Below are positions 32,252 through 58,189 of a stretch of 64,000 nucleotides of DNA, one piece after another (position 1 is the stretch's first letter; each line of letters begins with the position of its first letter). Location of the stretch: the NCBI GenBank assembly GCA_038869735.1, contig JAWCQO010000006.1, positions 4,255-68,254 on the forward strand, read 5' to 3'. This stretch comes from Candidatus Anstonellales archaeon. Lineage in GTDB: Archaea > Micrarchaeota > Micrarchaeia > Anstonellales > CG1-02-47-40. A program made the translations under genes and the position numbers. Below the pieces are notes generated by a model, which made no database searches, had not been told where the DNA came from, and worked only from the letters and a program-made list of their open reading frames with translations.

Positions 32252-32794
32252 GTGATTAGAGAAATTTTCATCTCATTTCTCACAGGCCTTTTTGTAAAAA
32301 AAACTGATGAGCTTGCCGACAAACGAAGAAAAAAAGAAATAGGCTTGTTGGCATACTTGCTTCCATTTCTCTACTCTCTCGGCCTTTCTTACCTGATTTT
32401 TTTTACAGGCGCATCAAGTCTTTTTCTTGCAGGCATTATTGGAGTATTGCTTGCAGGAAAAGTCGACCATAGATTACATCTAGTAGGCATTCTCCCCCCT
32501 CTTTTTCTTCTGCCTATTTTCCAGCTTCCGCAGTTTTCTCTTTTACACTTTTCTATCTTCCTCTTTGCCTCATTTCTTGATGAAAAGATTGCTAAATTCA
32601 AAGAATATACCCAACAACTTCTAAACTATCGCCCGTTCCTTCCTTTATCTGCTTTTTTACTTTCAATTTATTCTACTAACTTCCTTTACTTTCTTTCAGT
32701 TCTTTCCTTTGATGTTGGCTATAATTTTGCTTTTCTCAAAATACAACCCACTTTTTCCAACAAAGAATCTTGCAGAAAGTCGAAAAAACGCTAA
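32252..32794 (+). CDS. Multi-pass membrane protein of unknown function
   Basis: 180 residues from GTG 32252, immediately after the DHS stop. Four to five hydrophobic segments are seen, with a basic loop near residue 25 (ADKRRKKE), GKVDHRLHLVG near 69 and FASFLDEKIAKFKEY near 108. No family is recognised. Because it is adjacent without a gap it is probably translated with DHS. Confidence 0.65.
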   Translation: MIREIFISFLTGLFVKKTDELADKRRKKEIGLLAYLLPFLYSLGLSYLIFFTGASSLFLAGIIGVLLAGKVDHRLHLVGILPPLFLLPIFQLPQFSLLHFSIFLFASFLDEKIAKFKEYTQQLLNYRPFLPLSAFLLSIYSTNFLYFLSVLSFDVGYNFAFLKIQPTFSNKESCRKSKKR

Positions 32795-32869
32795 ACACTC
32801 CTCCCTTCTTTCAAAACCCCTTTGCAAGGAACCCAAAAACATAAAATAGCGGACTTTTCCCCCACAACA

Positions 32870-32880
32870 ATATTTATTTA
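32870..32880 (+). promoter_or_regulatory. TATA-like element of priL
   Basis: ATATTTATTTA is centred about 25 bp upstream of ATG 32900, matching a leaderless start. It argues against the upstream extension beginning at 32822. Confidence 0.5.
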
Positions 32881-32899
32881 TGAACAAAAAAAGCTTATT

Positions 32900-33874
32900 A
32901 TGCCAAATCTTCTCTTCTGTGCAAAATACCCATTTACACGGGAAGCAAAAGAATACGTAAAAGGGGCCGGAGTATCTCTTGACACAGACATATTAAGACG
33001 AGCAGAGAAACGAGTGGTTTCAGCCATACAGGAAGGTAAAATACCACCATTTTCAGAAGTTCTTCCCTCCACTTATCCCATTGAGATATTTTCCTATGCT
33101 GCAGCACGGATGATAATTTCAGGGATGAAGTCAAGATACTTTATAAGCAGGTATGCAATTGCCGAATCAAAACGTTCAAGCGAGTATCTTAGAAAAGACC
33201 CCGAGGAAAATCTCAAAAAAATAATGGACGAGCTCAAAATTTTCTGTAGCTACTCACAGGACAACACACTCATGCCACTTTTTGCATATCTTAAGTATTC
33301 TCCAAAAGACACTCATTATAAATTATCAAAAATGAAAATAAAAGGCGGCTTTGTCATCTTCGAACATGACGAAAAAAACAAGCTTATTCGCATTACTGAA
33401 GAGGCAATAAGAAAATCAATAGAATCTTCTCTTCCAGTTGTCTCGCCGACTCCACCTGAAGTCAAGCGAATTGCACAACGGCTCTCTCAAGAGTTATCCC
33501 ACCCCAAGCCCCCAAAGACAACCATAGGTTCTGAAAATATTCCCCCCTGCATACGTGAGCTTCTTGACAGGCTTGCTTTAAGCGAGAATCTTCCCCATAC
33601 CGCACGATGGGTACTTGCCGTCTATCTCTTAAACTCAGGAATGAGCCCAGAGAACGTTATTAATGCCTTTAGAACCGCTCCAGATTATTCAGAAGAAACG
33701 ACAAAATACCAGGTAACGCATATAAAAGAGAAGAAGTACTCCATGCCTTCGTGTGCTACAATGGATACTTATGGCCTTTGCAACGCAACTTGCGGATGCC
33801 TTAATCCTCTAAGATACAGGAAGGGAATGGAGCTCCAAAAGGGCCAGGCAGCAGAAAGTGAAAAGAAAAAATAG
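32900..33874 (+). CDS. priL: DNA primase large subunit
   Basis: 324 residues. The N-terminal helical domain contains YPFTREAKEYVKG, the FSEVLPSTYPIEIFSYAAARMII region near 50-75 and RYFISRYAIAESKR near 85. The C-terminal 4Fe-4S domain has cysteines at PPCIREL near 222, PSCATMD near 288, and GLCNATCGC near 298. It partners PriS in making RNA/DNA primers. priS starts 20 nt downstream. Confidence 0.95.
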   Translation: MPNLLFCAKYPFTREAKEYVKGAGVSLDTDILRRAEKRVVSAIQEGKIPPFSEVLPSTYPIEIFSYAAARMIISGMKSRYFISRYAIAESKRSSEYLRKDPEENLKKIMDELKIFCSYSQDNTLMPLFAYLKYSPKDTHYKLSKMKIKGGFVIFEHDEKNKLIRITEEAIRKSIESSLPVVSPTPPEVKRIAQRLSQELSHPKPPKTTIGSENIPPCIRELLDRLALSENLPHTARWVLAVYLLNSGMSPENVINAFRTAPDYSEETTKYQVTHIKEKKYSMPSCATMDTYGLCNATCGCLNPLRYRKGMELQKGQAAESEKKK

Positions 33875-33893
33875 CCGTGTCTGGTAGTTAGGT

Positions 33894-35036
33894 ATGAACC
33901 ACTTAGAAGAAAAGGATACACAGAAGTTTGTGCAAGATAAGATATACCATTACTATTATTCCCATCCACCAGCAATTCCATTCATTGAAAAAAGAGAATT
34001 CGGCTTTGGTACATGGGAAGAAAAGATAGCATATAGGCACCTATGGTTCAAAACTAATTCAGAGCTTGTTGCGCGCCTTCTCAATGATAGACCACTTTTT
34101 GTGTCTTACTCAGCAGCCATCTATGAATTCCCAGACGCACGACCAATGACAAAAAAGAATTGGCTTGGAGCAGACCTTGTCTTTGACCTCGACGCAAAGC
34201 ACAGCGAATGGGACAAAGAAAAAAAATCTCTAGATTGTGGAAAATTTACCTGTCAGCAATGCTTTGATTATATCAAAGAACAAACGCAGAGGCTGATAGA
34301 TGAGTTTCTTATTCCAGACTTTGGTTTTTCAAAAAGTGAAATCTCACTAAACTTCTCAGGAAATCGCGGGTATCATGTGAGAATATCAAATGAAGACGTT
34401 ATGCCACTTACACGTGAAGAAAGAAGGGAGATAGTGGACTACTTGCTTGCAAACGGGATAACTTTTAATGACTTCTTTTCAAGTGATGGTTCAAAACTAC
34501 TTGGACCCACTCCAAATCAAGGCGGTTATTTTGGCAAGGTTGCAAAGAGCGCAATTCTTCTTTCGCAAAACCCAGCAATTGCAACTTCCATATCTCGAAA
34601 ACTCCGCGATAAAGCAAATTTGGAGCATTTCATATCAGGAGTGCAAGAAGGCAACTGGAATAAAGTTGGCATCCCAAACAAAGAAAAAAAATTTCAACGA
34701 CTTTTTCAAAAAATAATTAGCCAGCTTTCAGTGAACGTGGATTCTGGTGTATCCATAGATACAAGCAAGCTCCTAAGAATGCCAGATTCAATAAATGGCT
34801 CAAGCGGCCTTATAGCAAAGAGAATATCCGACCTAAAATCGTTTGAGCCTACCAGAGACGCCGTTGCATTTTCTAGCCAGCCAATAAAAATAAGGGTAAT
34901 TGAGCCTGTCAGGGAGCTTTCTTTCCTCAACTCTACATTTGGGCCATTTGAGCCAAATTCTGAGCAGACAGTTCCCGAATCGTTGGCAATCTATCTCATA
35001 TTAAAAAGGGCTGCAATTCTTTCAAACCCAATATAG
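33894..35036 (+). CDS. priS: DNA primase small (catalytic) subunit
   Basis: 380 residues. The catalytic metal motif is VFDLDAKH near residue 99-106, a Zn-knuckle-like CGKFTCQQC follows near 118, and SGNRGYHVRI near 158 is the conserved primase motif. SIDTSKLLRMPDSINGSSGL near 285 contains the third conserved block. It polymerises primers and pairs with PriL. The gene lies between priL and GINS, as a replication module. Confidence 0.96.
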   Translation: MNHLEEKDTQKFVQDKIYHYYYSHPPAIPFIEKREFGFGTWEEKIAYRHLWFKTNSELVARLLNDRPLFVSYSAAIYEFPDARPMTKKNWLGADLVFDLDAKHSEWDKEKKSLDCGKFTCQQCFDYIKEQTQRLIDEFLIPDFGFSKSEISLNFSGNRGYHVRISNEDVMPLTREERREIVDYLLANGITFNDFFSSDGSKLLGPTPNQGGYFGKVAKSAILLSQNPAIATSISRKLRDKANLEHFISGVQEGNWNKVGIPNKEKKFQRLFQKIISQLSVNVDSGVSIDTSKLLRMPDSINGSSGLIAKRISDLKSFEPTRDAVAFSSQPIKIRVIEPVRELSFLNSTFGPFEPNSEQTVPESLAIYLILKRAAILSNPI

Positions 35037-36192: not shown

Positions 36193-36975
36193 ATGTTAGA
36201 ACCAAAACAGGATGAACTTGTAGTTGCAACAATAAAGAAGATAATGCCTTATGGAGCGTTTTGTCTACTCGATGAATACCCTGGCAAGGAAGCATTTGTT
36301 CACATATCCGAGGTAGCTCCCCGTTGGATAAAGAATATACACGAATTCCTTCATGAAGGCCAGAAAGTAGTTGCGCGTGTCTGGAGAGTAATCCCAGAGA
36401 AGAACCAAATAGACTTATCCTTAAAGCGCGTTACAGAGGCTGAGAAAAAAAGAAAGCTTGAAGCAGTAAGAAGAAATAAGCGAGCTGAGAAACTCTTTGA
36501 GATGGTCCAAAACAAGCTAAATCTTACGGATCCACAAAAAAAGCAAACCCTAATGGCACTCTCGTCACTCTACGAAGGCGACCTCCTTTTAGCGTTTGAG
36601 ACAGCACTTGATGGACCGGAACCTCTTATCGAGGCAGGGATAGAAAAAACAATTGCAAATGCGATTTTTGAAGTTTCCCAAAAAAGCATAAAGAAGCAAA
36701 AAGCAGAAACAAGGGCAACAATATCTCTTGTTTCATATGAACCTAACGGAGTGGAGCTAATCAAAAAAACCTTCTCATCTCTCACCGTTTCTCCTCACAC
36801 AGAATTTAGCATACACTTCCTTGGCTCACCCAGGTATCAACTAAAAGTAAAGGCACCAGACTTTAAGCATGCAGAAAAGTCCCTTGACGAACTCATCTTG
36901 CAGATAGAAAAAGCTATTAAGGGCCACGATGTACTACTTTCTTGTCAGAAAGAAGAAGGTAGAAAAACAACATGA
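36193..36975 (+). CDS. eif2A: Translation initiation factor aIF2, alpha subunit
   Basis: 260 residues. The N-terminal S1 OB domain has VATIKKIMPYGAFCLLDEYPGKEAFVHISEV and WRVIPEKNQIDLSLKRV. A helical middle domain and a C-terminal alpha/beta domain (FLGSPRYQLKVKAPDFKHAEK) follow. It binds initiator tRNA with aIF2-gamma. ATG 36193 is chosen; GTG 36181 would overlap the S27e stop. The stop overlaps Nop10 by ATGA. Confidence 0.96.
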   Translation: MLEPKQDELVVATIKKIMPYGAFCLLDEYPGKEAFVHISEVAPRWIKNIHEFLHEGQKVVARVWRVIPEKNQIDLSLKRVTEAEKKRKLEAVRRNKRAEKLFEMVQNKLNLTDPQKKQTLMALSSLYEGDLLLAFETALDGPEPLIEAGIEKTIANAIFEVSQKSIKKQKAETRATISLVSYEPNGVELIKKTFSSLTVSPHTEFSIHFLGSPRYQLKVKAPDFKHAEKSLDELILQIEKAIKGHDVLLSCQKEEGRKTT

Positions 36976-37121
36976 AAAAGCTTCGAAAATGCAATGTATG
37001 CCACACATATACTTTAAGCGATGTTCACTGCGGCCTGCAAACAAGATATGGCCATCCCCCACCGTTTAAGATAACTGACAGATGGGCAAGATACAGGAGA
37101 AAAGAAAAATTTGGTGTTTAA
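36972..37121 (+). CDS. nop10: H/ACA RNP protein Nop10
   Basis: 49 residues. Zinc site KCNVCHTYTLSDVHC (the usual final cysteines in other lineages may be absent), then GHPPPFKITDRWARYRRK, the Nop10 signature. It stabilises Cbf5 in guide-directed pseudouridylation. The start overlaps the aIF2-alpha stop by 4 nt. Confidence 0.95.
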   Translation: MKKLRKCNVCHTYTLSDVHCGLQTRYGHPPPFKITDRWARYRRKEKFGV

Positions 37122-37122
37122 T

Positions 37123-37893
37123 ATGTTCGAATCAAAAGTAATCCAAAGGAAAAGGTCAACGAGAATAAAACTCAAAAATCCCTTGCTGATTGCAGGGTTT
37201 CCAGGAATAGGGCTCGTTGGAAAGATAGCGGCAGATTATCTCGTGCGGGAACTTAAAGGAGAAAAAATTGCAGAGCTTTATTCTCCGCACTTCCCTCATC
37301 AGGTTATTATGCAGAAAAATGGCGTTTGCCGAATGCTAAAAAACAAGTTCTATCTCATAAAGGGAAAGGATCGAGATATGATTATCCTTACAGGAGACGT
37401 GCAGGCAATTACAAGCGAAGCCCAATACGAAATATGTGGTAAAATCTTAGATTATTACGCAAAGCTCGGTGGCAAAGAGATTTTCACTCTGGGAGGGTAT
37501 GGCACAGGAAAAGCACCAGAAAAGCCCCGCGTCTTTGCTGCAACTACGCACAAAAAGCTTGTCCAAGAGTTCAAGAAGTATGGCCTTATATTTGGTGAAG
37601 CACACGGATCAATAATAGGCGTGGCCGGCCTTTTACTTGGAATGGGCAAAATACGTGGCATGTACGGTATATGTATAATGGGAGAAACCCACGGCGGATT
37701 TGCCGATGCAAGGGCGGCAAAGGCTGTCCTTGAATCTTTGTCTAAAATAACCGGCTTGCACATAAACCTTTCAAAACTCGATGCTCGTGCAAGAGAAAGC
37801 GAAGAATTCATGAAAAAGATGGAAGGAGAAGCGCAGAGGCAAATGAAGACTTCCCTTGGGGAGGAATTGCAAGGACTCTCGTACATCAGATGA
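37123..37893 (+). CDS. PAC2-family proteasome assembly chaperone homologue
   Basis: 256 residues. PAC2 pattern NPLLIAGFPGIGLVGKIAADYLV near 22-44, then GDVQAITSEAQYEI near 93, TLGGYGTGKAPEKPRV near 123 and HGSIIGVAGLLLGMGK near 160. A C-terminal helix is Lys/Glu-rich. Archaeal members help assemble the 20S proteasome. It is the final gene of the aIF2 cluster. Confidence 0.93.
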   Translation: MFESKVIQRKRSTRIKLKNPLLIAGFPGIGLVGKIAADYLVRELKGEKIAELYSPHFPHQVIMQKNGVCRMLKNKFYLIKGKDRDMIILTGDVQAITSEAQYEICGKILDYYAKLGGKEIFTLGGYGTGKAPEKPRVFAATTHKKLVQEFKKYGLIFGEAHGSIIGVAGLLLGMGKIRGMYGICIMGETHGGFADARAAKAVLESLSKITGLHINLSKLDARARESEEFMKKMEGEAQRQMKTSLGEELQGLSYIR

Positions 37894-38086
37894 GAGGGGG
37901 GATAAGAGGCGTTTGTTTGGCAAAGGAATTCGGAGATTATAGATGTTTGAATTTGTTCTTGCTTAGCCCAAAGAGGAGGAATAACGAGATATGGATAAAA
38001 GAATAATATGGATAAGACTAAATTGCTAAATTTACGTTTGGTCGCTTCCAATTAACTCAATTAGATTGGAGATACCAGGTGATAAC

Positions 38087-39097
38087 GTGAGAGTCGCAAT
38101 AAACGGTTTTGGAAGAATAGGGCGTTGTGTCTTGCGCTCAGCTGCCGAGTCAGGCGTTCTCGGAAAAGCCTTTGACTGTATTGCAATAAACTGCACGCAT
38201 TCGCCAAAAGAAATTTCATATTACTTTACTCACGACTCAATCTACGGCCAATTTGAAGGAGAAGTCAGCTATTCAGAAAACACACTAATCATAAATGGAT
38301 TCGAAATACGACTTGTAGCTGACAGAGATCCAAAAAACTTACCTTGGAAATCGCTTGGCATTGATTGCGTGATTGAAGCTACAGGCTCCTTCACTGATAG
38401 AGCAGGGGCTTCTCTCCACCTTACAGCCGGTGCAAAGAAAGTTCTAATTACGGCACCAGCAAAAAATCCAGACGTGACAATAGCCCCGGGAGTAAATGAT
38501 GATGTTTATGACCCCTCAACTCATTCAATAATCTCTCTTGCAAGCTGCACAACAAACTGTCTTGCTCCGGTTGCAAAAGTGCTTGAGGACAACTTTGGCA
38601 TCACTTCCGGCTTCATGACTGCCGTTCACGCATATACTGGAGACCAAACACTAACAGACGACTATCACAAAAAAGATCTTAGGAGAGGCAGAGCTGCAGC
38701 CCTCTCAATCGTCCCAACATCTACAGGAGCAGCTAAAGCTATAGGGGATGTCCTCCCTTCCCTTAAAGGAAAGCTTGATGGCATTGCCCTGAGAGTTCCT
38801 ACTCCTACCGGTTCCATGAATTCACTTGTCTGCACCCTTACAAAAGAAGCTGGTGCAGAAGAGGTAAATTCAGCAATGAAAAAGGCTTCAGAAGGAAAAC
38901 TGAAAGGCATTCTTCAATATTCAGAAGACGAGCTCGTTTCTTCTGATATAATAAAAAATCCACATTCCTCAATATTCGATTCAAAGCTTACTAAATGTAT
39001 AGAAAGAACCTGCAGCACCTATGCCTGGTATGACAACGAATGGGGCTACTCTTCTCGCGTAGTTGATGCCATTTGCAAGACACTCAACAAAGCTTGA
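38087..39097 (+). CDS. gap: Glyceraldehyde-3-phosphate dehydrogenase, class I
   Basis: 336 residues from GTG 38087, preceded by AGGTGAT; an upstream TTG at 38066 is less likely. The class I fold is plain: VAINGFGRIGRC at the start, the active site ASCTTNCLAP near residue 154, GRAAALSIVPTSTGAAKA near 208, and WYDNEWGYSSRV near the end. Most archaea use the unrelated class II enzyme with little identity to this one, so this gene looks bacterial in origin. PGK in the window is archaeal. The last codons and downstream bases are partly duplicated 78 bp later. Confidence 0.95.
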   Translation: MRVAINGFGRIGRCVLRSAAESGVLGKAFDCIAINCTHSPKEISYYFTHDSIYGQFEGEVSYSENTLIINGFEIRLVADRDPKNLPWKSLGIDCVIEATGSFTDRAGASLHLTAGAKKVLITAPAKNPDVTIAPGVNDDVYDPSTHSIISLASCTTNCLAPVAKVLEDNFGITSGFMTAVHAYTGDQTLTDDYHKKDLRRGRAAALSIVPTSTGAAKAIGDVLPSLKGKLDGIALRVPTPTGSMNSLVCTLTKEAGAEEVNSAMKKASEGKLKGILQYSEDELVSSDIIKNPHSSIFDSKLTKCIERTCSTYAWYDNEWGYSSRVVDAICKTLNKA

Positions 39098-40530: not shown

Positions 40531-42225
40531 ATGGTAATGGCGAATAAACCGTTAACGAAGCAGGATATTATCAGTAGGTACGAGGCTGCTCTGAAACTAC
40601 TAGAGGGCCATTCAATAAGCGAAGGTGATAATCAGTGGCTTCGACGAACCATCACACTCACACTAAACTACATGAAAGGAAAACCTGAGGAGGAGGGAGG
40701 GCTTTCAGGGCGCTTTCGTCTTAAAGACATTATACAAGCATTAGAGTACAAAAACGATTTGGGGACCATATGTAAATTCTTACAGGATAACAATGTAGCA
40801 GATGCCGACTCAATCATGAGCGCCGTAAAACAACTTCACAAAAGCGCAAATTTAATTTCGAAGGCGTCATCAGCCCTCCGTTTAGATCAAAAAACATTTA
40901 GTCACGTAAATAAAGAATCAGCTAATCTTCTCGGAGACCTTCAAGAAAATACTCTTAACCAAATCTCCCAGTGGTTATATCAAAAAAATTATGATAGCAT
41001 AGCAGATTATCAAAAAAATGTAATTTTAGAGGGGGTATCTCATGCCTTTAAGTACATGGTCCAAAACGGATTTGCCCAAAAGAACGCAAATGAGCTTGGC
41101 CCCAATAGCACACTACTTCTTGCAGAGCTCTCATGCGTCTTTGCAATTTTAGGAAACCGAAATGGCAAAGATCTTTCAAACATTGCGTTTAGCGGCTTTC
41201 AGAAGACTGACGACGTAGAGATTAATGCCCTTAATGCACTTAACGTGTTGTTCGACGAGGATGGTGTTTTTAACGAAAAATTTTTTGAGCCTCAGATATA
41301 CATAGATGGAAAGAAATCATCCATAAGCAATAGAGGAAAGAGCAGGTGGGCAAAACTTCTTACTAGGGTGCGAGGTGAGTACAAACTACAGCGTCCAGAA
41401 GAGACACAAGAAGGAGCAGGAGAAGAGACACGAGAAGGAGCAGGAGAAGAGACACGAGAAGGAGCAGGAGAAGAGACACGAGAAGGAGCAGGAGAAAAGA
41501 CACAACAATCTCCGAAACCAGAACAACAAACTCCGGAACAAAAACTTAGAGATGTTATTATGAACTGGATTCCTGGCATAAATGAAGAACTAGCAAACGA
41601 GATCATAAATTCTATTCCATCTGATCAAAAGGATTCTCTTGTATCTTTTTTTGAATCTCTATCTAATAAAAATATCTCTGAAATACTAGACGCGTCAATA
41701 AATGGTATGAAGCTAGATGGTACGGATCTAAAGCCGGAATATATCGATAATCAATTGACCAACCTTTTTAATGCCGTGCTAAGTGCTCTAGAAGCGGTGA
41801 AAGCGCGCACCAAAACGCGACCCCCTCTTCTTGATATCTCCAAATTTATCAAATTCATTAAAGAAGATCTACGATCCTCAGACAGAATGTGGTATGATAG
41901 TATATGTAAGATAGCTGACTATCTACTGAACGGAGGTCACAGCTCCACCGATAAAATGAAACCCACCTATCTCACAGAAGAAAATGTAACTAATGCTTTA
42001 AGACCTCTAGAAGGCAGGGTGAAGGGAGGAGGACTATTTAAGAAAGACACCATGGAACAACTTACCACACTTATAATGTATCAATCGTATAATCAGCTTG
42101 TGAAATATATTGACAATACAAAAAAAGACAAGAATATCCATGCCGGCGAGCTGCTCCTCAGAATATATGAAGATAAATATAATAAGGATACGGAGTCTAA
42201 AAAGGAGCAGTCTACTACCCAATAA
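40531..42225 (+). CDS. Large helical protein of unknown function with EETREGAG repeats
   Basis: 564 residues, no signal peptide or transmembrane segment, preceded by a GGAGGG site 5 nt before the ATG at 40531. The protein is mostly alpha-helical. It is split at residues 290-330 by four nearly perfect eight-residue repeats (EETREGAG type) and a Pro/Gln linker. A block IPSDQKDSLVSFFES near 368 resembles IPEDQKTLFAALHED in the 51137 protein, suggesting the two are distantly related. Family not recognised. It is the first of five large accessory genes. Confidence 0.7.
   Translation: MVMANKPLTKQDIISRYEAALKLLEGHSISEGDNQWLRRTITLTLNYMKGKPEEEGGLSGRFRLKDIIQALEYKNDLGTICKFLQDNNVADADSIMSAVKQLHKSANLISKASSALRLDQKTFSHVNKESANLLGDLQENTLNQISQWLYQKNYDSIADYQKNVILEGVSHAFKYMVQNGFAQKNANELGPNSTLLLAELSCVFAILGNRNGKDLSNIAFSGFQKTDDVEINALNALNVLFDEDGVFNEKFFEPQIYIDGKKSSISNRGKSRWAKLLTRVRGEYKLQRPEETQEGAGEETREGAGEETREGAGEETREGAGEKTQQSPKPEQQTPEQKLRDVIMNWIPGINEELANEIINSIPSDQKDSLVSFFESLSNKNISEILDASINGMKLDGTDLKPEYIDNQLTNLFNAVLSALEAVKARTKTRPPLLDISKFIKFIKEDLRSSDRMWYDSICKIADYLLNGGHSSTDKMKPTYLTEENVTNALRPLEGRVKGGGLFKKDTMEQLTTLIMYQSYNQLVKYIDNTKKDKNIHAGELLLRIYEDKYNKDTESKKEQSTTQ
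41398..41493 (+). repeat. 24-bp coding tandem repeat, four copies
   Basis: The unit GAAGAGACACGAGAAGGAGC plus AGGA is repeated four times from 41398, 41422, 41446 and 41470, in frame, encoding EETREGAG. The first copy has CAA for CGA. A partial fifth copy (EKTQQ) follows. Copies are nearly identical at the DNA level, so copy number may vary. Confidence 0.95.
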
Positions 42226-42665: not shown

Positions 42666-45600
42666 ATGCAAATGCGTATAGAAAAAGAAGAAAAACAAGA
42701 TAATGTGACAGAGATACAACCGAAGGCAGACTATTTCCTAGCTAAAATACTCCTCTACTCCAAAGAACATTCCAATCCATTTGATTTTGTGAATAAGTGG
42801 GAAGACCTTACCAACGAGTTGGGTCCTATTCTAGCTGGCCTCAAAGAAAATGAAAAAGACTATTTTTATGAACATCTCAATAAACAAATACAAAAATATA
42901 ACATAAATTCCACCATCCTTCCTTACGTTTCACCTTCCATTTCACTATATAAAGAACAGCTTTTGAACGCTCTTGGCTACTTCCATACACTTGACCAGAA
43001 GTTAAAGTCATATATCTTCCTCGGTCAGGGGGAACTCACTAAACTCACTATTGATGATCTTGATCAAGATCTCAAGTCTAATAAGATAAATAAGAGTGCA
43101 TTTGAGCTCATACTAAAACTTCACTACGGAGATAAAGGCGAAACGCTAGACCATTTTCTTGTTGATGTGATGAAAGTGTCTAAAAGCAAACTCTCCAGTT
43201 CCAAAGTAATTGATAAATACATCTCTATAATGGACCACCTACAAAAAAATAAAGATTATTACTCAACAGACCCACTACGCAGTAAGGCAGATGAGGACAA
43301 TATAAAATCAATTTTGTACGGCACGATCCCTCTTCATCCACCAAATACACAACAAGTAGGACCCTCCCAGATAAACTTATTTGATACAATATCCACTGCC
43401 GCTTTAATATATAAATATAAGACAACAGATTTTAAGCCGCATATCGAAAATTTAAATATACTTACGAACCTTCTGACGACATATTCAACAGGTGGTTCCC
43501 TACCACCCTACTCTCAAGCTCTTCTTCTTTCAAAAAATTATTCAACTCTGTTTGACTCCATGCTTCATCTTGATCAGCAAAATAGAGGAAACGTACTAAA
43601 CAGTCTGTTGTTCTACTACTCCCACTTATATAGTAACCTTCCGTTGGAAAATAGATACATCGCCCTAGGAAACTTTTTAGATAAAGTGCTCTCTACTAAT
43701 TTTTATCAACACGATACACTCGATCAGGCAGTGAGTTCTGCGGGTAGTTTTACTGATAGAGGCCGTATCAGGACGCATTCACAACAAACTATTCTCGGTT
43801 TTCCAAGTGTGGGCGGGAACTTCCAGAGTGATACTTATAATATTCTTAGATTCTTTTCTCCAAACCTGAATCCATTCAATCTGCAGGAGTCGTCCGCCAA
43901 CCTTGATATGTTCATTACGTCGTTTATTCCAGGGTTTTATCCAATTAAGCCATATTACCCATCATCCATATATCAAAAACCTAAATTTGACGCAATTCAA
44001 TTGATTTCAGCGATAGATCATATACGCCGTCTTGTTGCGGAGTATTATAAACCCAAAATCGTTTTAAGTTTTAACGAAATAAGCGCGCATACGTTCGCAT
44101 CTCATAGTAAATTTCCTACGAATGAATTCTCCAGAGGTAGTGGTTCCATTGATGTTCATGGATTAGAACATCAAATCAGAGCTAGTGGAACTGTTGAATC
44201 CCAAGAATATCGGGGGGGGAAAGAATCAAAAGCCGCGAATGTGGCCCTCAACGCCACTTTATCAGCTAATCAACTTTTCCTTCAATATGTAAAAGATAAG
44301 AAGATTGACCTTTCTCAAGTAACAGACGAAAACCTCCTTGCTAATCTCAACTTGGCTCTTAGAGAAGGTACAGACATGTTGTTTTTTTTTGAGATGCCGC
44401 AACACTCCACATCAACATCAGAAAAAGAAGAGATCATTGGCAGTCTTTATATTTATGACTATGGCTCCCGCACCTGGTATAGAGCAAATATAAATGAACT
44501 TGATGAAGATATAAATAAACTTAATGAAGATCTGTCTGAATTCCGACACTACTTTTTTTCTCTTAGACAGGCTCTTCTTGGAGAGGATACACCAGTCCAA
44601 TTCGCTGTAGAACGCCAAAATAGTAAGGTTAACCAAACTAGTAATGTTAACAAAACAACTGTAGAAGCAGAACGATGGGGATTCATGATCGGAGTAGCAC
44701 TCAGCAACGATACTGGAGCCTCCTTATTCCGCTCAACAGAAGGAAATATGAGTATTTCTTTCGTTAGATCTACCAACTTAGTTGTCACATCTGTTGGTTT
44801 ATTTCACATCAAAGAGGAACCTACGCCAGGCGTTTATTATAACCCTATTGACTCCACTCAGTCTCAAAAAGGTAGCCAAACGTTTGCTAACTTTGGATCC
44901 ACAACCAAGAATAATGAATTTACTGCTTTGTTTGGTGTCACTAATAATAGTGGCGCTAATAAACCAATGGTAGGGGGTCGATTCTCACATCTAGACAAGT
45001 CAGTTGCCTGGTCAGCTGCTGCTTTATACTCCTTCAACCCTGTTTACGGCACTTACATATTGGAAACTAGTGGAGGAGTAGATTATGGCTCTCTAAATCT
45101 TCTAGCTTATGTTAAGGCAGCAATGGACAATGTCACTAAGAAGGGGGCGGGCGATCCAAATGCACGTCAACTAGAGATTAATTTGAACATTGGAGAGTCT
45201 AAGCTGGTGGGTGTAGGTGTTAGTCTTCCCAATGCCCATACATCAATTGAGTCCTCCGATATATTAAAGTCTCTTCATAACCTATATATCCGTCTTATGT
45301 CTACCATTAAAGAAAACAAAGGAGAAGATGTTGAAACAATTCTAATTCAGGTGGCTGACCTTGTTAAACTTTATGCGGAGACTACTTTGGCTTCAGTACT
45401 ATCGGATCCAAACAACAAAACCAACACTTATATCAAATTCTCAACAGGAGAAGGAGGCATTTCAGGTATATTTAATTATAACCCACATCAAAACCAGTGG
45501 ATGGCTACACTTTCTATCCCCCTTCCAGATAATCGCCAAATCCAACTTCTATACCTCAACGATGCAAAAATCCACACAACTAACCAATCTGCAACTAAAC

Positions 45601-46163
45601 GTGACGCTTTCGGAGCGAAATACCAAGAAGGGCCTTGGACTATTGCCGCAATCTATCCCGACCGTCCTACTCTTTTTAGTCCATTTTCAATAGCAGTTGC
45701 ATATGGTAAAGATAAGTGGAAGTTCGGAGTTGAGTTCTTTAACCCTACTCCATCTGTTGGCAACAATAAAAAAATTAGCGGTATTATTACCTATGGAAAT
45801 GTCCAAAATAACTTTTCCTTAATCGTATCTAACCAAGATTATGAACGATTGAACAGTTGGGTCCTCTCACTTCAACGGATATGGGACTTCTACAATCACA
45901 TACGCTTAACCGCGTTTTCTTCAGACATAGAACGTCCTCCAGACGGCATAAGAGGTTCTTCAAACATATACGTACCCTATGTTTACGATCTCAACATCAA
46001 CAGAGACGGAGGCAAAGCTTGGGGTTTCGAATTAGGCGCAGGCGGTGTCTTCCCTGGATTGGGTGTCTTCTCTAGGGGTGAGTGGGGGCTTACCGCCAGA
46101 CTCCTACAGGGCTATGGTGGATCAACATGGGAGATTAGACTTAATCTTTCCCTGCCTTTTTAG
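42666..46163 (+). CDS. 1165-residue protein with beta-barrel-like C-terminal half
   Basis: No signal peptide is seen: the N-terminus (MQMRIEKEEKQDNVTEIQPK) is hydrophilic. Residues ~15-490 are helical and Ser/Asn/Tyr-rich. From about 495, and clearly from 665, the sequence becomes a string of amphipathic strands of 8-12 residues. They have alternating polarity, aromatic residues at strand ends and Asn/Gly/Asp turns (WGFMIGVALS, KPMVGGRFSHL, KFGVEFFNPT, KKISGIITYG, AWGFELGAGG). The protein ends in a strand with C-terminal Phe (WEIRLNLSLPF), the mark of outer-membrane barrels in bacteria. No archaeal family is known to me with this build. The nearest relation in the window is the 53707 product. 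Confidence 0.75.
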   Translation: MQMRIEKEEKQDNVTEIQPKADYFLAKILLYSKEHSNPFDFVNKWEDLTNELGPILAGLKENEKDYFYEHLNKQIQKYNINSTILPYVSPSISLYKEQLLNALGYFHTLDQKLKSYIFLGQGELTKLTIDDLDQDLKSNKINKSAFELILKLHYGDKGETLDHFLVDVMKVSKSKLSSSKVIDKYISIMDHLQKNKDYYSTDPLRSKADEDNIKSILYGTIPLHPPNTQQVGPSQINLFDTISTAALIYKYKTTDFKPHIENLNILTNLLTTYSTGGSLPPYSQALLLSKNYSTLFDSMLHLDQQNRGNVLNSLLFYYSHLYSNLPLENRYIALGNFLDKVLSTNFYQHDTLDQAVSSAGSFTDRGRIRTHSQQTILGFPSVGGNFQSDTYNILRFFSPNLNPFNLQESSANLDMFITSFIPGFYPIKPYYPSSIYQKPKFDAIQLISAIDHIRRLVAEYYKPKIVLSFNEISAHTFASHSKFPTNEFSRGSGSIDVHGLEHQIRASGTVESQEYRGGKESKAANVALNATLSANQLFLQYVKDKKIDLSQVTDENLLANLNLALREGTDMLFFFEMPQHSTSTSEKEEIIGSLYIYDYGSRTWYRANINELDEDINKLNEDLSEFRHYFFSLRQALLGEDTPVQFAVERQNSKVNQTSNVNKTTVEAERWGFMIGVALSNDTGASLFRSTEGNMSISFVRSTNLVVTSVGLFHIKEEPTPGVYYNPIDSTQSQKGSQTFANFGSTTKNNEFTALFGVTNNSGANKPMVGGRFSHLDKSVAWSAAALYSFNPVYGTYILETSGGVDYGSLNLLAYVKAAMDNVTKKGAGDPNARQLEINLNIGESKLVGVGVSLPNAHTSIESSDILKSLHNLYIRLMSTIKENKGEDVETILIQVADLVKLYAETTLASVLSDPNNKTNTYIKFSTGEGGISGIFNYNPHQNQWMATLSIPLPDNRQIQLLYLNDAKIHTTNQSATKRDAFGAKYQEGPWTIAAIYPDRPTLFSPFSIAVAYGKDKWKFGVEFFNPTPSVGNNKKISGIITYGNVQNNFSLIVSNQDYERLNSWVLSLQRIWDFYNHIRLTAFSSDIERPPDGIRGSSNIYVPYVYDLNINRDGGKAWGFELGAGGVFPGLGVFSRGEWGLTARLLQGYGGSTWEIRLNLSLPF

Positions 46164-51136: not shown

Positions 51137-53710
51137 ATGCAAAACTATCTTTCTTCTCAGAACCAGAAAGAAGAGAAAAAAGCCTCCTCTCTTTCTATAT
51201 CTGCCAAAAAGGATCTATATATAAATACTTTGTTACGCTTTCTCGAATCAGACTCTCCAGCGTATTCATTTTATGATTACAGCCAATTTGTTGACAAGGA
51301 CTCTAAACTCCTCCCCCAATATAAGAGAGGAGCAAAGCTCTTTGCTCTCTATTTGTCTCTGCCATCAATCAACAATCTCAACGCCCAAACCCTAACCACC
51401 CACCTGAAAGATTCCTACTACCTGTCAATCGAAGCAATGACAATTTCAAACATAATCCAGTGGATGGAGTCCGGTCAAACTGGGACACTTCGCGAATATC
51501 TGAATAACGCAGGAATTGATAATAGAAAGAGAAATGTCATCTGCGACTATGCAGCAGCTTTTGGTGATTCAAAAGACATGCTAAGCTTTTACAAAGATGA
51601 GCTTTTATCAATATCATCGCTGTTGGTCAAACCCTCTACGCCCTCAACCGCTGTCCCATCCAAGCTTGAGCTTCTCTCACTTATTCCGGAGGACCAAAAA
51701 ACACTTTTTGCCGCTCTTCACGAAGACCAAAAACAGGCCATAAAAAATAAGCTCGAATCCGCATTTATCCAGTTCATGGCTAATATGGCTACCGACAATT
51801 CCAAGGACATAAACACAAAAGTGAACGATTTCATAAATAACATCCTTCCTGCAGAATTCAAGGAAGCATACTCCTCACTCTCAAAACCAGAGCAAACCAC
51901 AGAAGATTCACGTGCGTCCACGCCTTCATCACAAGAACAACCTCCCCCTCTATCCTCTAAAACCCCCAACCAAGGAAGCGAAAAGCAGCAGCTAACACCA
52001 GAGACCGGCTACTCTTCCTTCTCTCCTTCCTTACAGATACCTGCCAACTACCCTTTCGTGCAGGAGAGCAGCTTGTATGTTCCCCAGAGCTTGCCATGGT
52101 CATTTTCAGAGCCTGACGAAAACATTCTCCGAGAGGCCCAATTTGATAATTATGGAAAGCCCCACAACATCAAAGCGTACATGCAAAGAAGTGGGGATTA
52201 TTATTACTTTTACCTAACTTTTATAAAAAACATGAGCTATGACGAAAAAACAAACAACTTCACAAAAGCAAAAGACGAGTCAGAGTCTATCTATAATACT
52301 TACAAGAACGTACTAGAAAAAGGCAATAACCTTATCTTATTTCTTGAGTACATGATGCGCGGTCTACCCCACTCAGCATGTGCCGAGCTGGCACGCGCAA
52401 ACGCACGCGTTAGGAATGGAAAGCCAGCAGACTTTGGCTCCACCTATTTCGATGTCTATAAAACAAGTGGCGACTACTTCAATTCAAAAGGCAAAAAGCT
52501 CGGTACTTTTGCAAGCGAGGAGCAAGCAAAGAAAATAAGGCATGTATGGGTAAAAGTCCACAACCCATATACTGGTTCAGAGTTTCTTGTTGCGAATCAC
52601 TACCGAATCAACGATTTTCGCACAAAAGAGATCGTTCAAAAAATTATGAATCAATATTCACGCTTGTCCGCAATGGAGCTTGACGAAGCAGTGAAAAGCG
52701 TTGCAAAAAAATTAAACGTCAGCGATGAAGACATCAAGACAGGCTTATCTGAAAATCGACATATCCCGCCTCATCTCCTTCTCTCATATCTTTCTGCTGG
52801 AGCGTCACTTGGCTCTGACAAACAATACCTTACCTCTCTTGACAAGATAAGAAACTCATTTGGAGAGAAAGCAGACAGAATCTGCGAAATCCTATCTCCA
52901 CTGCTACGCGGCGGATATAGCTCTTCCGCTTTCATAGAATCAAAAAAAGGTGAATTAATTAAAAGTGGTCTAAATCAGACTGAGATTGCCATCCTGACCT
53001 CTCTATTAAAAAACGTTTCCAATGACCCCACATACATCTCACTTAGAATAGCCCCTCATAGGCTGTTGATTGCTGAAAGCAAAGCAGAACCTACTAAAGG
53101 CGAGCCTCAAGAAGTAGGCAAACCCCAAGAAGCCAAGTCTGAAACAAAAGAAAAATTTATGTATCTACCAATCTTTACAACAAAGATACCGCCTAGGGTG
53201 TATGAGGGCAGGACTATAAAATTTAAAGTTAAAGTTCCTGATGGGCCTATACCCCCCGAATTAACAATCGACTATCTATCACAAACAAGTGGAGCAGCCA
53301 CCCAAAGAGAAGACGGAAAAATCGTATTTGTGCCCGAGGGTACAAAATGCAATTTTGTTGTAATCGGAAAAGACAGAGAAAATAATACCTATCTCTTCAC
53401 CAAAGAGGGGAAACCAGTTGCAATATACAGAGATGGCCTTATCTATAAATACAAGCCAGCTTCAATGTTTAGAGGACCAAGTACAGGTGAGCAAATAGGG
53501 ACATACGATCAAAAGTCAGAAGTTCCCACAATAACCGATAACCAATTAAAAGAACAGATTATTAATGAGCTCGTTGCAAGAAAGATTAATGAAAATGGCT
53601 TTGTTGGATGGTGCACAGAAAAAAACGGAAAAATTGAGCAAGGATTTAAAATAAAAGCCGCTCCCGGAGGCCATATTGTCAAAGTTTTATATTTCTTTCC
53701 TGAAAGGTGA
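51137..53710 (+). CDS. 857-residue protein of unknown function, first of a three-gene run
   Basis: Soluble in appearance: no signal peptide or membrane helix. Residues ~1-245 are helical, ~250-300 a Ser/Pro/Gln-rich linker. Residues ~330-500 form a mixed alpha/beta part with SGDYYYFYLTFI and HVWVKVHNPYTGSEFLVANHY; ~510-640 are helical. A second Glu/Lys linker (KGEPQEVGKPQEAKSE) leads to a C-terminal beta domain starting YLPIFTTKIPPRVYEGRTIK. The helical IPEDQKT block resembles one in the 40531 protein. The end overlaps the next gene by GTGA. Family not recognised. Confidence 0.72.
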   Translation: MQNYLSSQNQKEEKKASSLSISAKKDLYINTLLRFLESDSPAYSFYDYSQFVDKDSKLLPQYKRGAKLFALYLSLPSINNLNAQTLTTHLKDSYYLSIEAMTISNIIQWMESGQTGTLREYLNNAGIDNRKRNVICDYAAAFGDSKDMLSFYKDELLSISSLLVKPSTPSTAVPSKLELLSLIPEDQKTLFAALHEDQKQAIKNKLESAFIQFMANMATDNSKDINTKVNDFINNILPAEFKEAYSSLSKPEQTTEDSRASTPSSQEQPPPLSSKTPNQGSEKQQLTPETGYSSFSPSLQIPANYPFVQESSLYVPQSLPWSFSEPDENILREAQFDNYGKPHNIKAYMQRSGDYYYFYLTFIKNMSYDEKTNNFTKAKDESESIYNTYKNVLEKGNNLILFLEYMMRGLPHSACAELARANARVRNGKPADFGSTYFDVYKTSGDYFNSKGKKLGTFASEEQAKKIRHVWVKVHNPYTGSEFLVANHYRINDFRTKEIVQKIMNQYSRLSAMELDEAVKSVAKKLNVSDEDIKTGLSENRHIPPHLLLSYLSAGASLGSDKQYLTSLDKIRNSFGEKADRICEILSPLLRGGYSSSAFIESKKGELIKSGLNQTEIAILTSLLKNVSNDPTYISLRIAPHRLLIAESKAEPTKGEPQEVGKPQEAKSETKEKFMYLPIFTTKIPPRVYEGRTIKFKVKVPDGPIPPELTIDYLSQTSGAATQREDGKIVFVPEGTKCNFVVIGKDRENNTYLFTKEGKPVAIYRDGLIYKYKPASMFRGPSTGEQIGTYDQKSEVPTITDNQLKEQIINELVARKINENGFVGWCTEKNGKIEQGFKIKAAPGGHIVKVLYFFPER

Positions 53711-55212
53711 TTCGAATTCAGGCACAAAAAGAAGTTCCAACGGAAAATATCAAGGACAGACTAAAAGAAGTGGCTAGCTTAATACAATCCAACGAAAGAG
53801 AGAAAGCAAAATCCATCCTGTTAACTCTCCCTCCTTTAGATAACGTTCTTAAAGAAGCCTTTTCTTTAGCCAAATCAGAACGTAATGGTAAGGATATCCT
53901 CAACTCCATAGTTTCACTATATAACAGTGATCCAAGCGCCTTACTCAAAAATAAAGGCAAACAAGAACTCGAATATGCTCTTCAAGTAATCAACGATAGC
54001 CCCTACATCGAATTCCCGTCTATCGATGCGTTCCTTAGCTATAATTTGTCTCTTCTTTCACAGAATATAAAAGAACTTCTTGGCCAGACTCCTTTAGGTT
54101 CCTCACAAACCTTCAAAACCAACGAAAAAAATAATCTTGGTACTCGCCCCCATCCTATTCCTGGTCCTCAACCTACATATATCCTTAATTCAAGGCCTCA
54201 ACTACATACTATAGTACTCAATTTATTTGAAGGATCGCGAGAAAATGCAGAAAGAGCATTGGACATAATTTCAAAGGCTCTTTTGAACCAGTTAAGGTCT
54301 GGCAAATTCCAGCCTCAATACGAAAAGGAACTTCTAGACTGCTTTCCTATAAGTTCTAAATCTAACCCTACCAACGAAGAGTTAAACGTATTATCTAATT
54401 TATTCGGTGTTCGTGAGGACAACTCGTATAATGAATTATGGGACAAGTTCAAGGATAATGTGAAAAGAGGGGACTACTTAGATATTTTGAATCTTCTTAG
54501 ATCAGAATCCTTTAATCTTAACCTTATAAAAATGCTCGAGTACCAAGACGCTAGACTTAACAGGCTTTCTTTTGACCTTTCAGCCAATGTTGAAGTAGGA
54601 AAAGACTATTTCATACGATTTGGAGCTTTACATTATCCAACCTATAAATGGAGACTTGAAAATGGATACATTAGGTTCTCAAAAATAGATGCTGAAGTTG
54701 AACTTGGAGTAGGAAAGCGTTTCTTTCTTCTTACACGAAGCGCTCTACTGGGCTTTAGCATTCTTCATCCTGTCCCATCCCCTGCATTTTCCAGCTTCAA
54801 GACAAAGTGTTTTTTTGCCTACGATTTTTTAAACAATTCAATAAGGGGGCTCCGAACGCCAACTCTCTTCAGCTCTCTTTCCTTCGATAAAGAACAAAAG
54901 TTTTCTGCAGAGGCGGATATCTCAATACCTATTATTCCTCTTAACAAGAGCAATTCAACTTTAATAACCGCAGATACCTATGTTTTATTTGGAGAAGGGA
55001 TGACACCCATCTATCTAGGCAAAGTTGGCTTTATTTTAAGGGAGGTATTTGGAAACACCGATATAACTTTTTGGGGAGGGATAAACCAAAACTCAACCAA
55101 ACAATTATCTGTTGAACTTGGAAATAATAAAGTCACTTTTAGCTTAACTACGCTGTGGCTTGAGAAGATAAATCACCCTCAGTTAAAGCTCACCCTCGGT
55201 ATCAATATTTAG
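53707..55212 (+). CDS. 501-residue protein with beta-barrel-like C-terminus
   Basis: GTG start at 53707 overlapping the stop of the preceding gene by 4 nt, so the two are translationally coupled. Residues 1-280 are helical. From ~286 to 501 the sequence is a series of short amphipathic strands (FDLSANVEVG, FIRFGALHYP, DAEVELGVGKRFFLL, FSAEADISIPII, DITFWGGINQN, KLTLGINI), as in the 42666 protein. No signal peptide is seen. The final strand ends in Ile instead of Phe. It may be the smaller partner of the 42666 product type. Confidence 0.72.
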   Translation: MIRIQAQKEVPTENIKDRLKEVASLIQSNEREKAKSILLTLPPLDNVLKEAFSLAKSERNGKDILNSIVSLYNSDPSALLKNKGKQELEYALQVINDSPYIEFPSIDAFLSYNLSLLSQNIKELLGQTPLGSSQTFKTNEKNNLGTRPHPIPGPQPTYILNSRPQLHTIVLNLFEGSRENAERALDIISKALLNQLRSGKFQPQYEKELLDCFPISSKSNPTNEELNVLSNLFGVREDNSYNELWDKFKDNVKRGDYLDILNLLRSESFNLNLIKMLEYQDARLNRLSFDLSANVEVGKDYFIRFGALHYPTYKWRLENGYIRFSKIDAEVELGVGKRFFLLTRSALLGFSILHPVPSPAFSSFKTKCFFAYDFLNNSIRGLRTPTLFSSLSFDKEQKFSAEADISIPIIPLNKSNSTLITADTYVLFGEGMTPIYLGKVGFILREVFGNTDITFWGGINQNSTKQLSVELGNNKVTFSLTTLWLEKINHPQLKLTLGINI

Positions 55213-55237
55213 GCCACACCACCAAGAGGTAATTTTT

Positions 55238-58189
55238 ATGAACCATAACCGCTTCTTTGTTTTTTTGCTGGTGGCCGTTTTTCTCCCGTTTTCTTCAGTA
55301 ACTATAAGTGGAAATCTAAACGATTTTGAGGCAGTTAGATACCCTGATGCCAATGAAACTTTTTTAACAGATATGTCCTACTCACTTTCTTTTACGGTCT
55401 CAACAGACTCTAGAGTCCTAACAAGCAATGCAGAGGCAGCAAATCTTCCAAACGAGGCATTCGTATGTCCCGGCAATATTCGTGCAACATTTTCCCCTTC
55501 ATTATCATTTGCAAGAAGATATCTGACAAGCGTTGCTCCACTTCCTGAGCGTTGTAACTTGCCACTGCAATATCAGAGCCAACAAAGTGGAACAGCCCAG
55601 CTTAACAATGCACTTTTCGAGACCCTCAACTCTACTCCGTATCATCGACTTGAGCAAGACAATCTAGGAACAAGAACTATCTACACTGGGCTGGCCAATG
55701 CCGTTTTATCAGATTCCCAGAGAAACATATACTATTCGCAAAGATTTGACGAGCCGACATCTCCAGGTGCTGGAAACGCAGGGGTTCTTTGCACAGGCAC
55801 TGCCACTATAATAAAAGATAACAATGAAAGATTTTCTTTTGATTTCCCTACCCACCCGTCAGCACTATTTCAAAACTTGCAAGCGCGAAGCGAACCTTAT
55901 ACCTTAGGGGCATATGTATCAATACTTGACTGCCACGGAATTATAGCTCCAAAGTGCAGGAGTCAGAACGGACAGATTGTAGACCCACTGCAAATACAAA
56001 AATTCATCTACTATACGGATAGCGACGCATACCGCTTGTCTACAGAGCGAGCTTCTCTGAGAATCTACGTGCGCAATCCCTCTGTCGCAGCAAGCGCAAG
56101 AATAGTTCAGATAAACAATCAGCCCCCTCCGCAAATTCTGGTTATCGATAGAGGCCAACGAATTCCAATAGAAATTGAGATTTCAAATTCTCAATCAAGT
56201 GAACCACGCAAAGTGCGAATAACGTCTATAGCAACAAATAACAATGCTGTTTCCATATCAATGGATGGCGTTCCGACTGCATGGATAGATGTAGGTAGAA
56301 GCTCAATCTTCACAGCCACTTTAACGGCCAATGCTGAGTACACCGGCCAGATTGCCATTGTAGTTTCCCTCGAAGCTGATGGTATAGTATGCGATGGCTC
56401 AATCCCAAGGCCCCGTCTATCTATTCCACTCAGCGTCCAGATAATCAGGCCTCTCCCGGATTTGGAAGTTGAGCATGTATCTCGCCAACCCTCTACACCA
56501 AACATAGGAGACAACATAACTTTCAGCGTAACAATCAAAAATAGTGGAAGAGGACGAGCAGATTCTTCTTCTGCCTGCCTCGTAATCACAACTCCGAATG
56601 GGCAGAGATTAGAGCCACTAATCCAGAACGTTGGCCCGTTAGAAGAAAACCAAACCACAAGTGTTAGATTTGCCTATGCTGTTCAAGGACCACAGGGTAG
56701 AACCCAGTACTCAATAAAAGCAGATTGTTTGAACCAAATTTCAGAGTCAGATGAGTCCAACAACGAAATTAGTGGGACGTTTTATGTTTTAGGGCGAGAA
56801 CAACGAATGCCAAATATACGAGCTGAGGATTTAAGATTGCTCCAAGAACCACTGGTAGGCTCTGAAATTCAGATGGCCGCACTCATCAAAAACCACAGAG
56901 GCGAAGTGTCAGAATTTGATACCTGCCTCTTAATTACGAGTCCTTCTGGTCGGGCAATGAGGTACAGCCAAAACTTACCCCACCTTGAATCGGATGAGGA
57001 ACGCGAACTTAGATTCAACAGTATTCCAATAAACGAGCTTGGGACATACACTGCAGAGGTTTATGCAGACTGCAATAATGATATCAGTGAGGAAAACGAA
57101 GATGACAATAGAGTAGAAAGACAATTCAACTCGCGGCTTTCTGATCGCCTTCCAAATCTTCAAGCAAGCCTAAGTGTCTCGCAGCGAGGCTTTATCTGTT
57201 CAGGCGACACCGAAAGGATTCTTTTGAGAATAGTAAATAACGGGACTCAAAACATAGAAAATGGATCTGGGTTTTCAAATCGACTTGTAATAATTGAACC
57301 AGATGATTCAATCTCATTTAGAGATTTTCGCGTTCAAGGTGGCCTCCAACAACGAGCCTCCACAAACTTTTCTCTCTTCTATCGCTTTTCTCAACCAGGG
57401 CCTTATACAATTATCGGCATTGCCGACAATGAAGAAACTATTTATGAGTCGGACGAGAACGACAATGTTGCATCTATTAGTTCTGAAGTTTCTAGAAACC
57501 TTCCAAATATCCGGCTTCAGAGTATATCGTACGAACCCGAGAGAAATATACTTCTTGACTCAACATTTTTAGTCAACGTTTTTGTTGAAAACAACGGCTG
57601 TGCCGACATACCTGAAAGAACAAATATAACACTGAGCGTAATAATACAAAACCAGCGTCATGGCAATACTCTCGAGCAGAAGATCTCGTACTTAGGAGGC
57701 CTTAGGCGCAACCAGACTTACGAATTTCAAGAAATTCCCTTTACCCTTACCCAGTCCTTCTCTGGCATGAACACAATAACTGCAATAGCCGATGAGCAAA
57801 ATACAATACGAGAGCTTAACGAAAGCGACAATAGATTGGATACATATTTTTTTGCCGGAGGGGGCGCTAGAAGGGGGCCTACATGCATTATTCTGTCTCC
57901 TTCCCCCCCACTTTATCTTTCAGGCCAATATCACGACGTTTTTGTCCAATATTTAAATTATGTCCCCAATGGCCCAGTTTATTTTGACTGCGGCAACGGA
58001 CAGCAAAGGATTGCACTCACATGCCAAGAAGTTGATACAGACGCGTTTTGTATAGCTCAATCCGCATGCAGATACGAAACAGAAGGCGTCTACACTGCCC
58101 GTGCAATTGGGCCACCTTCTGCTCCGATATGCCAACGAACAATAGAAGTGGAATTAGATGAATTTTCAATCTGCAATGCTTACATATAA
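55238..58189 (+). CDS. Secreted CARDB-repeat surface protein
   Basis: 983 residues. A signal peptide (FFVFLLVAVFLPFSSVTI) is followed by a ~380-residue unique region with scattered cysteines. Then four CARDB-type Ig repeats of about 115 residues start near 405, 523, 637 and 754; each begins LPN/LPD and closes with an Asp/Glu-Asn signature such as ISESDESNNE or IYESDENDN. A C-terminal Cys-rich PKD-like part follows at ~880-983. No membrane anchor is seen. It follows the 53707 gene by 25 nt with a GAGGT site, so it is part of the same run. It is likely an adhesin or cell-envelope protein. Confidence 0.82.
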   Translation: MNHNRFFVFLLVAVFLPFSSVTISGNLNDFEAVRYPDANETFLTDMSYSLSFTVSTDSRVLTSNAEAANLPNEAFVCPGNIRATFSPSLSFARRYLTSVAPLPERCNLPLQYQSQQSGTAQLNNALFETLNSTPYHRLEQDNLGTRTIYTGLANAVLSDSQRNIYYSQRFDEPTSPGAGNAGVLCTGTATIIKDNNERFSFDFPTHPSALFQNLQARSEPYTLGAYVSILDCHGIIAPKCRSQNGQIVDPLQIQKFIYYTDSDAYRLSTERASLRIYVRNPSVAASARIVQINNQPPPQILVIDRGQRIPIEIEISNSQSSEPRKVRITSIATNNNAVSISMDGVPTAWIDVGRSSIFTATLTANAEYTGQIAIVVSLEADGIVCDGSIPRPRLSIPLSVQIIRPLPDLEVEHVSRQPSTPNIGDNITFSVTIKNSGRGRADSSSACLVITTPNGQRLEPLIQNVGPLEENQTTSVRFAYAVQGPQGRTQYSIKADCLNQISESDESNNEISGTFYVLGREQRMPNIRAEDLRLLQEPLVGSEIQMAALIKNHRGEVSEFDTCLLITSPSGRAMRYSQNLPHLESDEERELRFNSIPINELGTYTAEVYADCNNDISEENEDDNRVERQFNSRLSDRLPNLQASLSVSQRGFICSGDTERILLRIVNNGTQNIENGSGFSNRLVIIEPDDSISFRDFRVQGGLQQRASTNFSLFYRFSQPGPYTIIGIADNEETIYESDENDNVASISSEVSRNLPNIRLQSISYEPERNILLDSTFLVNVFVENNGCADIPERTNITLSVIIQNQRHGNTLEQKISYLGGLRRNQTYEFQEIPFTLTQSFSGMNTITAIADEQNTIRELNESDNRLDTYFFAGGGARRGPTCIILSPSPPLYLSGQYHDVFVQYLNYVPNGPVYFDCGNGQQRIALTCQEVDTDAFCIAQSACRYETEGVYTARAIGPPSAPICQRTIEVELDEFSICNAYI

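Follow-up and report, generated by a model that had tools for sequence, protein, structure and literature searches.

A family of large orphan proteins in Anstonellales archaea whose C-terminal regions resemble bacterial outer-membrane beta-barrels in sequence

Our analyses of a 64,000-nucleotide stretch of archaeal DNA (the window) have identified a gene for a 1165 amino acid (aa) protein whose C-terminal 520 residues, judged by their sequence, resemble bacterial outer-membrane barrels in composition, strand pattern, terminal strand and the substitutions that they have accepted. A membrane beta-barrel is the leading explanation for this region, and we place its probability near, though somewhat short of, an even chance. 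The known membrane beta-barrels are those of bacteria and of organelles of bacterial descent, and they are assembled by Omp85 proteins. The gene, which belongs to a family of barrel-tailed orphans, occupies positions 42666..46163 of the plus strand as a single-copy open reading frame (ORF) that runs from ATG to stop with no internal stops, in a genome of 884 kb that is 97% complete. The encoded protein contains no cysteine, and hydropathy analysis revealed neither a transmembrane helix nor a hydrophobic N-terminal stretch in it.

Several parts can be demarcated within this protein. Its N-terminal part (residues ~1-480; 42666..44105, plus strand) is depleted in strands and has no h-region, signal peptide or transmembrane helix; the strand depletion and the composition fit a helical structure, and the first ~490 residues are probably helical. 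A conserved middle stretch (residues ~549-606; 44310..44483, plus strand) is delineated by two alignments (A1 and A2), in which W604 is identical in eight family members and W604-Y605-R606 is shared by the closest four. The outer-membrane-protein-like beta region comprises the C-terminal ~520 residues (646-1165; 44601..46160, plus strand) and is recognized by its strand density, its barrel HMM score and its face-preserving substitutions. In the middle of this region there is probably a helical insert (residues ~864-912; 45255..45401, plus strand), where the strand posterior averaged across the family dips and where two helices form the best-scored part of a low-confidence AlphaFold2 model (pLDDT 30). 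The last strand, TWEIRLNLSLPF (46125..46160, plus strand), resembles the C-terminal signal of bacterial barrels, as indicated by a terminal-strand score and a rule test.

An earlier note on this DNA had pointed to a strand-rich C-terminus of ~500 residues, and counts of strong alternating 9-mers bear this out: the last 520 residues hold 2.88 per 100 aa (15 seen vs. 8.6 expected from shuffles; z 2.6) and the N-terminal 645 residues 0.78 per 100 aa (z -1.8). The corresponding density is 1.8-3.1 in E. coli barrels and <1.9 in most soluble proteins; small pilins reach 3.3 per 100 aa, and hence strand density alone is no proof of a barrel. The terminal Phe described in the note is likewise present, and the strand that it closes (WEIRLNLSLPF / TWEIRLNLSLPF) obtains a score of 7.8, the highest among 841 ORFs of the host genome. 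A relaxed form of the terminal-strand rule is passed by 9 of the 12 family members vs. 15 of 676 ORFs of the host, and in most members the strand stops exactly at the C-terminus. Among the closest trio of sequences, substituted positions in the C-terminal part stay hydrophobic in 74% of cases on the predicted outward face and in 36% on the inward face, the values for the N-terminal part being 51% and 31%. Aromatic strand ends, also part of the earlier description, do occur in the C-termini of the family (aromatic frequency 0.38 and 0.28 at the ends and 0.12 at the centre of strands), but they do not discriminate; because the N-terminal parts of the family give the same end/centre ratio, the aromatic girdle was dropped as evidence for a barrel. 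No self-match indicative of internal repeats was detected in the C-terminal 520 residues, which weakly disfavours a propeller or a beta-helix with repeats. The strand posterior averaged over the family is too flat for the counting of strands.

The barrel likeness was quantified with a small HMM comprising loop, outward-strand and inward-strand states, which was trained on 18 E. coli barrels and scored per 100 aa. Left-out E. coli barrels scored -6.35 to +0.99, 14 beta-rich soluble proteins -6.29 to -19.9, and the remaining soluble proteins did not exceed -9.6. The C-terminal 520 residues of the 1165 aa protein score -3.27 (N-terminal part, -13.7), a value that lies in the range of the left-out barrels and above all of the soluble controls, and when sliding windows are scored the protein stands at the top of 558 proteins of its genome (-3.02 vs. 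-6.78 for the next). Composition contributes a large share of this score, because the shuffled sequence still reaches -5.4; the order beyond composition, measured against shuffles, has a z of 3.4. This z is positive in all eight of the members identified first (mean 2.0), and averages -1.0 in their N-terminal parts and -0.2 in the proteome. Two members (L010 and L021) have weaker scores for the C-terminal 520 residues (-7.3 and -7.5), and four members found later, which took no part in setting up the scores and thus served as a test, score -3.5 to -5.2 and have terminal strands in the top 0-4%. TamB, a periplasmic protein that is not a barrel, scores -6.3 with an order z of 8.1, which is stronger than that of the 1165 aa protein. 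Between the true barrel and the soluble beta fold that the earlier note had offered, the rank among the 558 proteins and the placement in the E. coli barrel range favour barrel-like statistics; a closed barrel and a location in a membrane are what we infer beyond them.

Structure prediction with AlphaFold2 on the last 717 residues, with one relative as its whole alignment, yielded a model too poor to use (pLDDT 30). A single-sequence AlphaFold2 model of the last 224 residues of the relative from LFW-35 contains 13 strands and two helices (pLDDT 50.5, pTM 0.42), and Foldseek matches to this low-confidence model were all weak, mostly with rmsd >11 A, and none was significant.

Members of this family are present in 12 of the 301 Micrarchaeota genomes searched, all of them from the order Anstonellales, where they are distributed over five families (viz. 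f1, f2, f5, f6, and f10), and the complete members are about 1150-1530 aa in length. A direct query recovered one weak relative, from genome G030, which when used as a query led to members in G019 and G002; a profile of these four members then recovered four more, and a second profile another four. The genome under study and G030 (LFW-35) are of one order, and the latter has been described as 'Ca. Anstonella stagnisolia' of the order Anstonellales, phylum Micrarchaeota (PMC8561730). Similarity across the family extends to the N-terminal part, as exemplified by residues 123-818 of the 1165 aa protein, which align with L010. Comparison of the sequences of two orthologs indicates that the gene is under purifying selection (dN/dS 0.15 in the C-terminal 520 residues vs. 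0.24 in the N-terminal part). No member was found in G001, a genome of the same family as the host, and a chorismate synthase region of G001 was rejected as a chance match because profile searches do not reproduce it. No relatives were found in viral contigs, phages or plasmids. Searches of Pfam, NCBIfam, PHROGs and PDB profiles gave chance-level matches only, and among eight members there was no Pfam match, at E up to 1, to autotransporter or TamB/AsmA/VPS13 families. On the evidence of these searches the family is previously undescribed, and it is large, conserved and cysteine-poor and has no described relative.

The local synteny around the family gene is kept in part. A glyceraldehyde-3-phosphate dehydrogenase gene (38066..39097, plus strand; identified by Pfam and syntenic with L010) is close to the family gene both here and in G019, a P-type ATPase gene is close to it in G030 and G019, and genes that we take, from our own reading of their sequences, to encode thiolase and HMG-CoA synthase-like proteins are near it in several f5 genomes. 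The gene upstream (40531..42225, plus strand) encodes a 564 aa protein that has no Pfam match. Family genes elsewhere likewise adjoin large orphan ORFs, and no sequence relation is detectable between the 564 aa protein and these neighbours. Large orphans of Anstonellales often start with MF[LI]FQ, as observed at L022 914-4846, L023 12420-15602 and 15613-18993, L024 2709-4964, and C7:58409-60628 of the host genome.

Other features of the window and of the host genome were also recorded. A 501 aa protein at 53707-55212, known only from the host genome and G001, has no signal peptide and carries a strong amphipathic terminal strand that ranks third of the 841 ORFs; the C-terminal strand pattern of its relative in G001 (L012) is stronger still (z 3.6). 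It lies within 51137-58189 between an 857 aa orphan and a 983 aa CARDB protein, in an order that is kept in G001 (L012 11195-19001). Positions 142-5562 of the window represent the end of a 3271 aa ORF (contig C6:1-9816) with beta-rich domains and a HerA/DUF87-type ATPase domain near its C-terminus. Near-identical N-termini of surface proteins (MEISRRIVTYALFLFSLLVS) and shared repeats occupy contig ends of the host genome (L034-L082: C9 start, C14 8426-10237, and C1 end), and therefore a repeated gene family is probably what broke the assembly. Adjacent secreted-looking proteins encoded at C5:24223-28518, 31851-34151 and 36657-38699 of the host genome contain 5-6.5% cysteine, an amino acid that the barrel-tailed protein lacks altogether.

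A hydropathy test revealed no convincing signal peptide in any of the ten N-terminally complete family members, the nearest to exceptions being L137, in which a stretch at residue 35 is moderately hydrophobic, and L021, whose segment is weak. The lack of a Sec or Tat signal, which the earlier note had reported for the 1165 aa protein, is thus confirmed for it and extends to the other members. TatC was not found in the host genome, which encodes SecY and other proteins that bear ordinary N-terminal hydrophobic signals. Omp85 (PF01103) was absent from all 99 genomes searched (the host and its relatives), with seven bacterial control genomes positive, in agreement with a published survey that detected no Omp85 in archaea (PMC4104836). 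For the 1165 aa protein, our searches revealed neither an export nor an assembly route. Several archaea, ARMAN cells among them, have been reported to possess double membranes (PMC4243693). The literature that we searched describes no barrel proteins from such archaea, and for Anstonellales we found neither electron microscopy nor a report of a double membrane, so that an outer membrane in this order is putative.

In comparison with known systems, the 1165 aa protein is similar to bacterial outer-membrane beta-barrels (viz. porins, TonB-dependent receptors, BamA, and ushers) in strand density, HMM score and low cysteine content, the terminal amphipathic strand of the family often ends in Phe or Trp as in these barrels, and its possible mid-chain helical insert recalls the plugged ushers. 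However, the family differs from them in its lack of a signal peptide, the absence of Omp85 from its genomes, its archaeal hosts, and the absence of any sequence relation. Because the strand pattern and terminal strand of such proteins were found here with neither a signal peptide nor Omp85, the 1165 aa protein is not classed as a bacterial-type outer-membrane protein. The presence of a large N-terminal part and a C-terminal barrel-like domain in one chain is shared with autotransporters (type V secretion), from which the family is distinguished by the lack of a Sec signal, BAM, and a Pfam autotransporter match; the classical autotransporter barrel is also smaller than the ~520 aa C-terminal region described here. 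The outer-membrane pore protein of Ignicoccus is small and helical. It and the 1165 aa protein are both putative archaeal outer-membrane pores, and they are likened here by description alone. The proposal that the Ignicoccus protein forms a pore in an archaeal outer membrane is cited in PMC4243693.

The absence of a signal peptide from ten members, of Omp85, and of a transmembrane helix would equally suit a cytoplasmic protein with a soluble beta-rich C-terminal domain, i.e., a sandwich or a large soluble barrel with its hydrophobic faces turned inward, whose barrel likeness would be convergent, and alternating strands are found in soluble proteins too (e.g., pilins, with densities up to 3.3). 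We regard this explanation as a serious though doubtful one: the HMM score is unmatched by the other proteins of the genome (558 scored) and by the 14 soluble beta controls, and most members, like bacterial barrels, have a terminal strand whose last residue is the C-terminus itself. It is improbable, in our estimation, that the strands of the region wrap into a beta groove like those of the TamB/AsmA/VPS13 proteins, which bind lipids and conduct them from one membrane to another along an extended hydrophobic trough, even though such proteins share with the family a long run of amphipathic strands, need no internal repeats, and include TamB, which of the soluble controls comes nearest to the family with its score of -6.3 and z of 8.1. 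Pfam searches of eight members at E up to 1 gave no hit to these families, there is no PDB profile match of note and no membrane-anchoring N-terminal helix, and the Gly- and Asn-rich turns together with the terminal strand fit barrels better.

There is also a slim chance that the protein is released towards a partner cell, with the barrel inserting in the membrane of the partner and the MF[LI]FQ neighbours belonging to the same exported set. In 18 genomes, starts of this form occur in 38 places vs. 5 for the reversed form; many of them open long orphan ORFs, some of which adjoin barrel genes, and a lytic transglycosylase SLT domain was recognized in one of the proteins that bear them (L106; E 1.8e-10). 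MF[LI]FQ is possibly a short targeting motif. However, the 1165 aa protein itself does not carry this motif, no delivery apparatus was found, and the link between the motif and export is a guess. With regard to the membrane barrel, the occurrence of amphipathic strands in soluble folds, the even stronger pattern of TamB, the restriction of the family to 12 of 301 Micrarchaeota genomes and the lack of a member in G001 are counted against it, and the lack of both a signal peptide and an assembly machine is hard to square with any known membrane barrel. The evidence from sequence thus speaks for a membrane barrel, and known cell biology against it.

If the membrane barrel is the correct reading, the C-terminal region would fold as a beta-barrel in a membrane, the helical insert could serve as its plug, and the N-terminal part would constitute a soluble domain that the barrel holds or carries, as in autotransporters or plugged pores. 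Neither a cleaved Sec or Tat signal nor Omp85 would then take part in bringing the protein to the membrane, which it would enter by inserting itself or through an export route not yet known, and it may act as a pore or an anchor on the surface of the archaeal cell or of its partner; we infer these steps of insertion, plugging, pore formation and anchoring. That the family represents the first archaeal family of transmembrane beta-barrels, synthesized in the cytoplasm with no cleavable signal, placed in a membrane with no Omp85, and thus pointing to an independent way of building barrels in Anstonellales, is conceivable but on balance unlikely. Even if the fold is soluble, the family remains large, conserved, cysteine-poor and without a described relative. 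A true barrel would imply an unknown route of export and assembly in Anstonellales, and it would supply a gene for testing the diderm state in Micrarchaeota.
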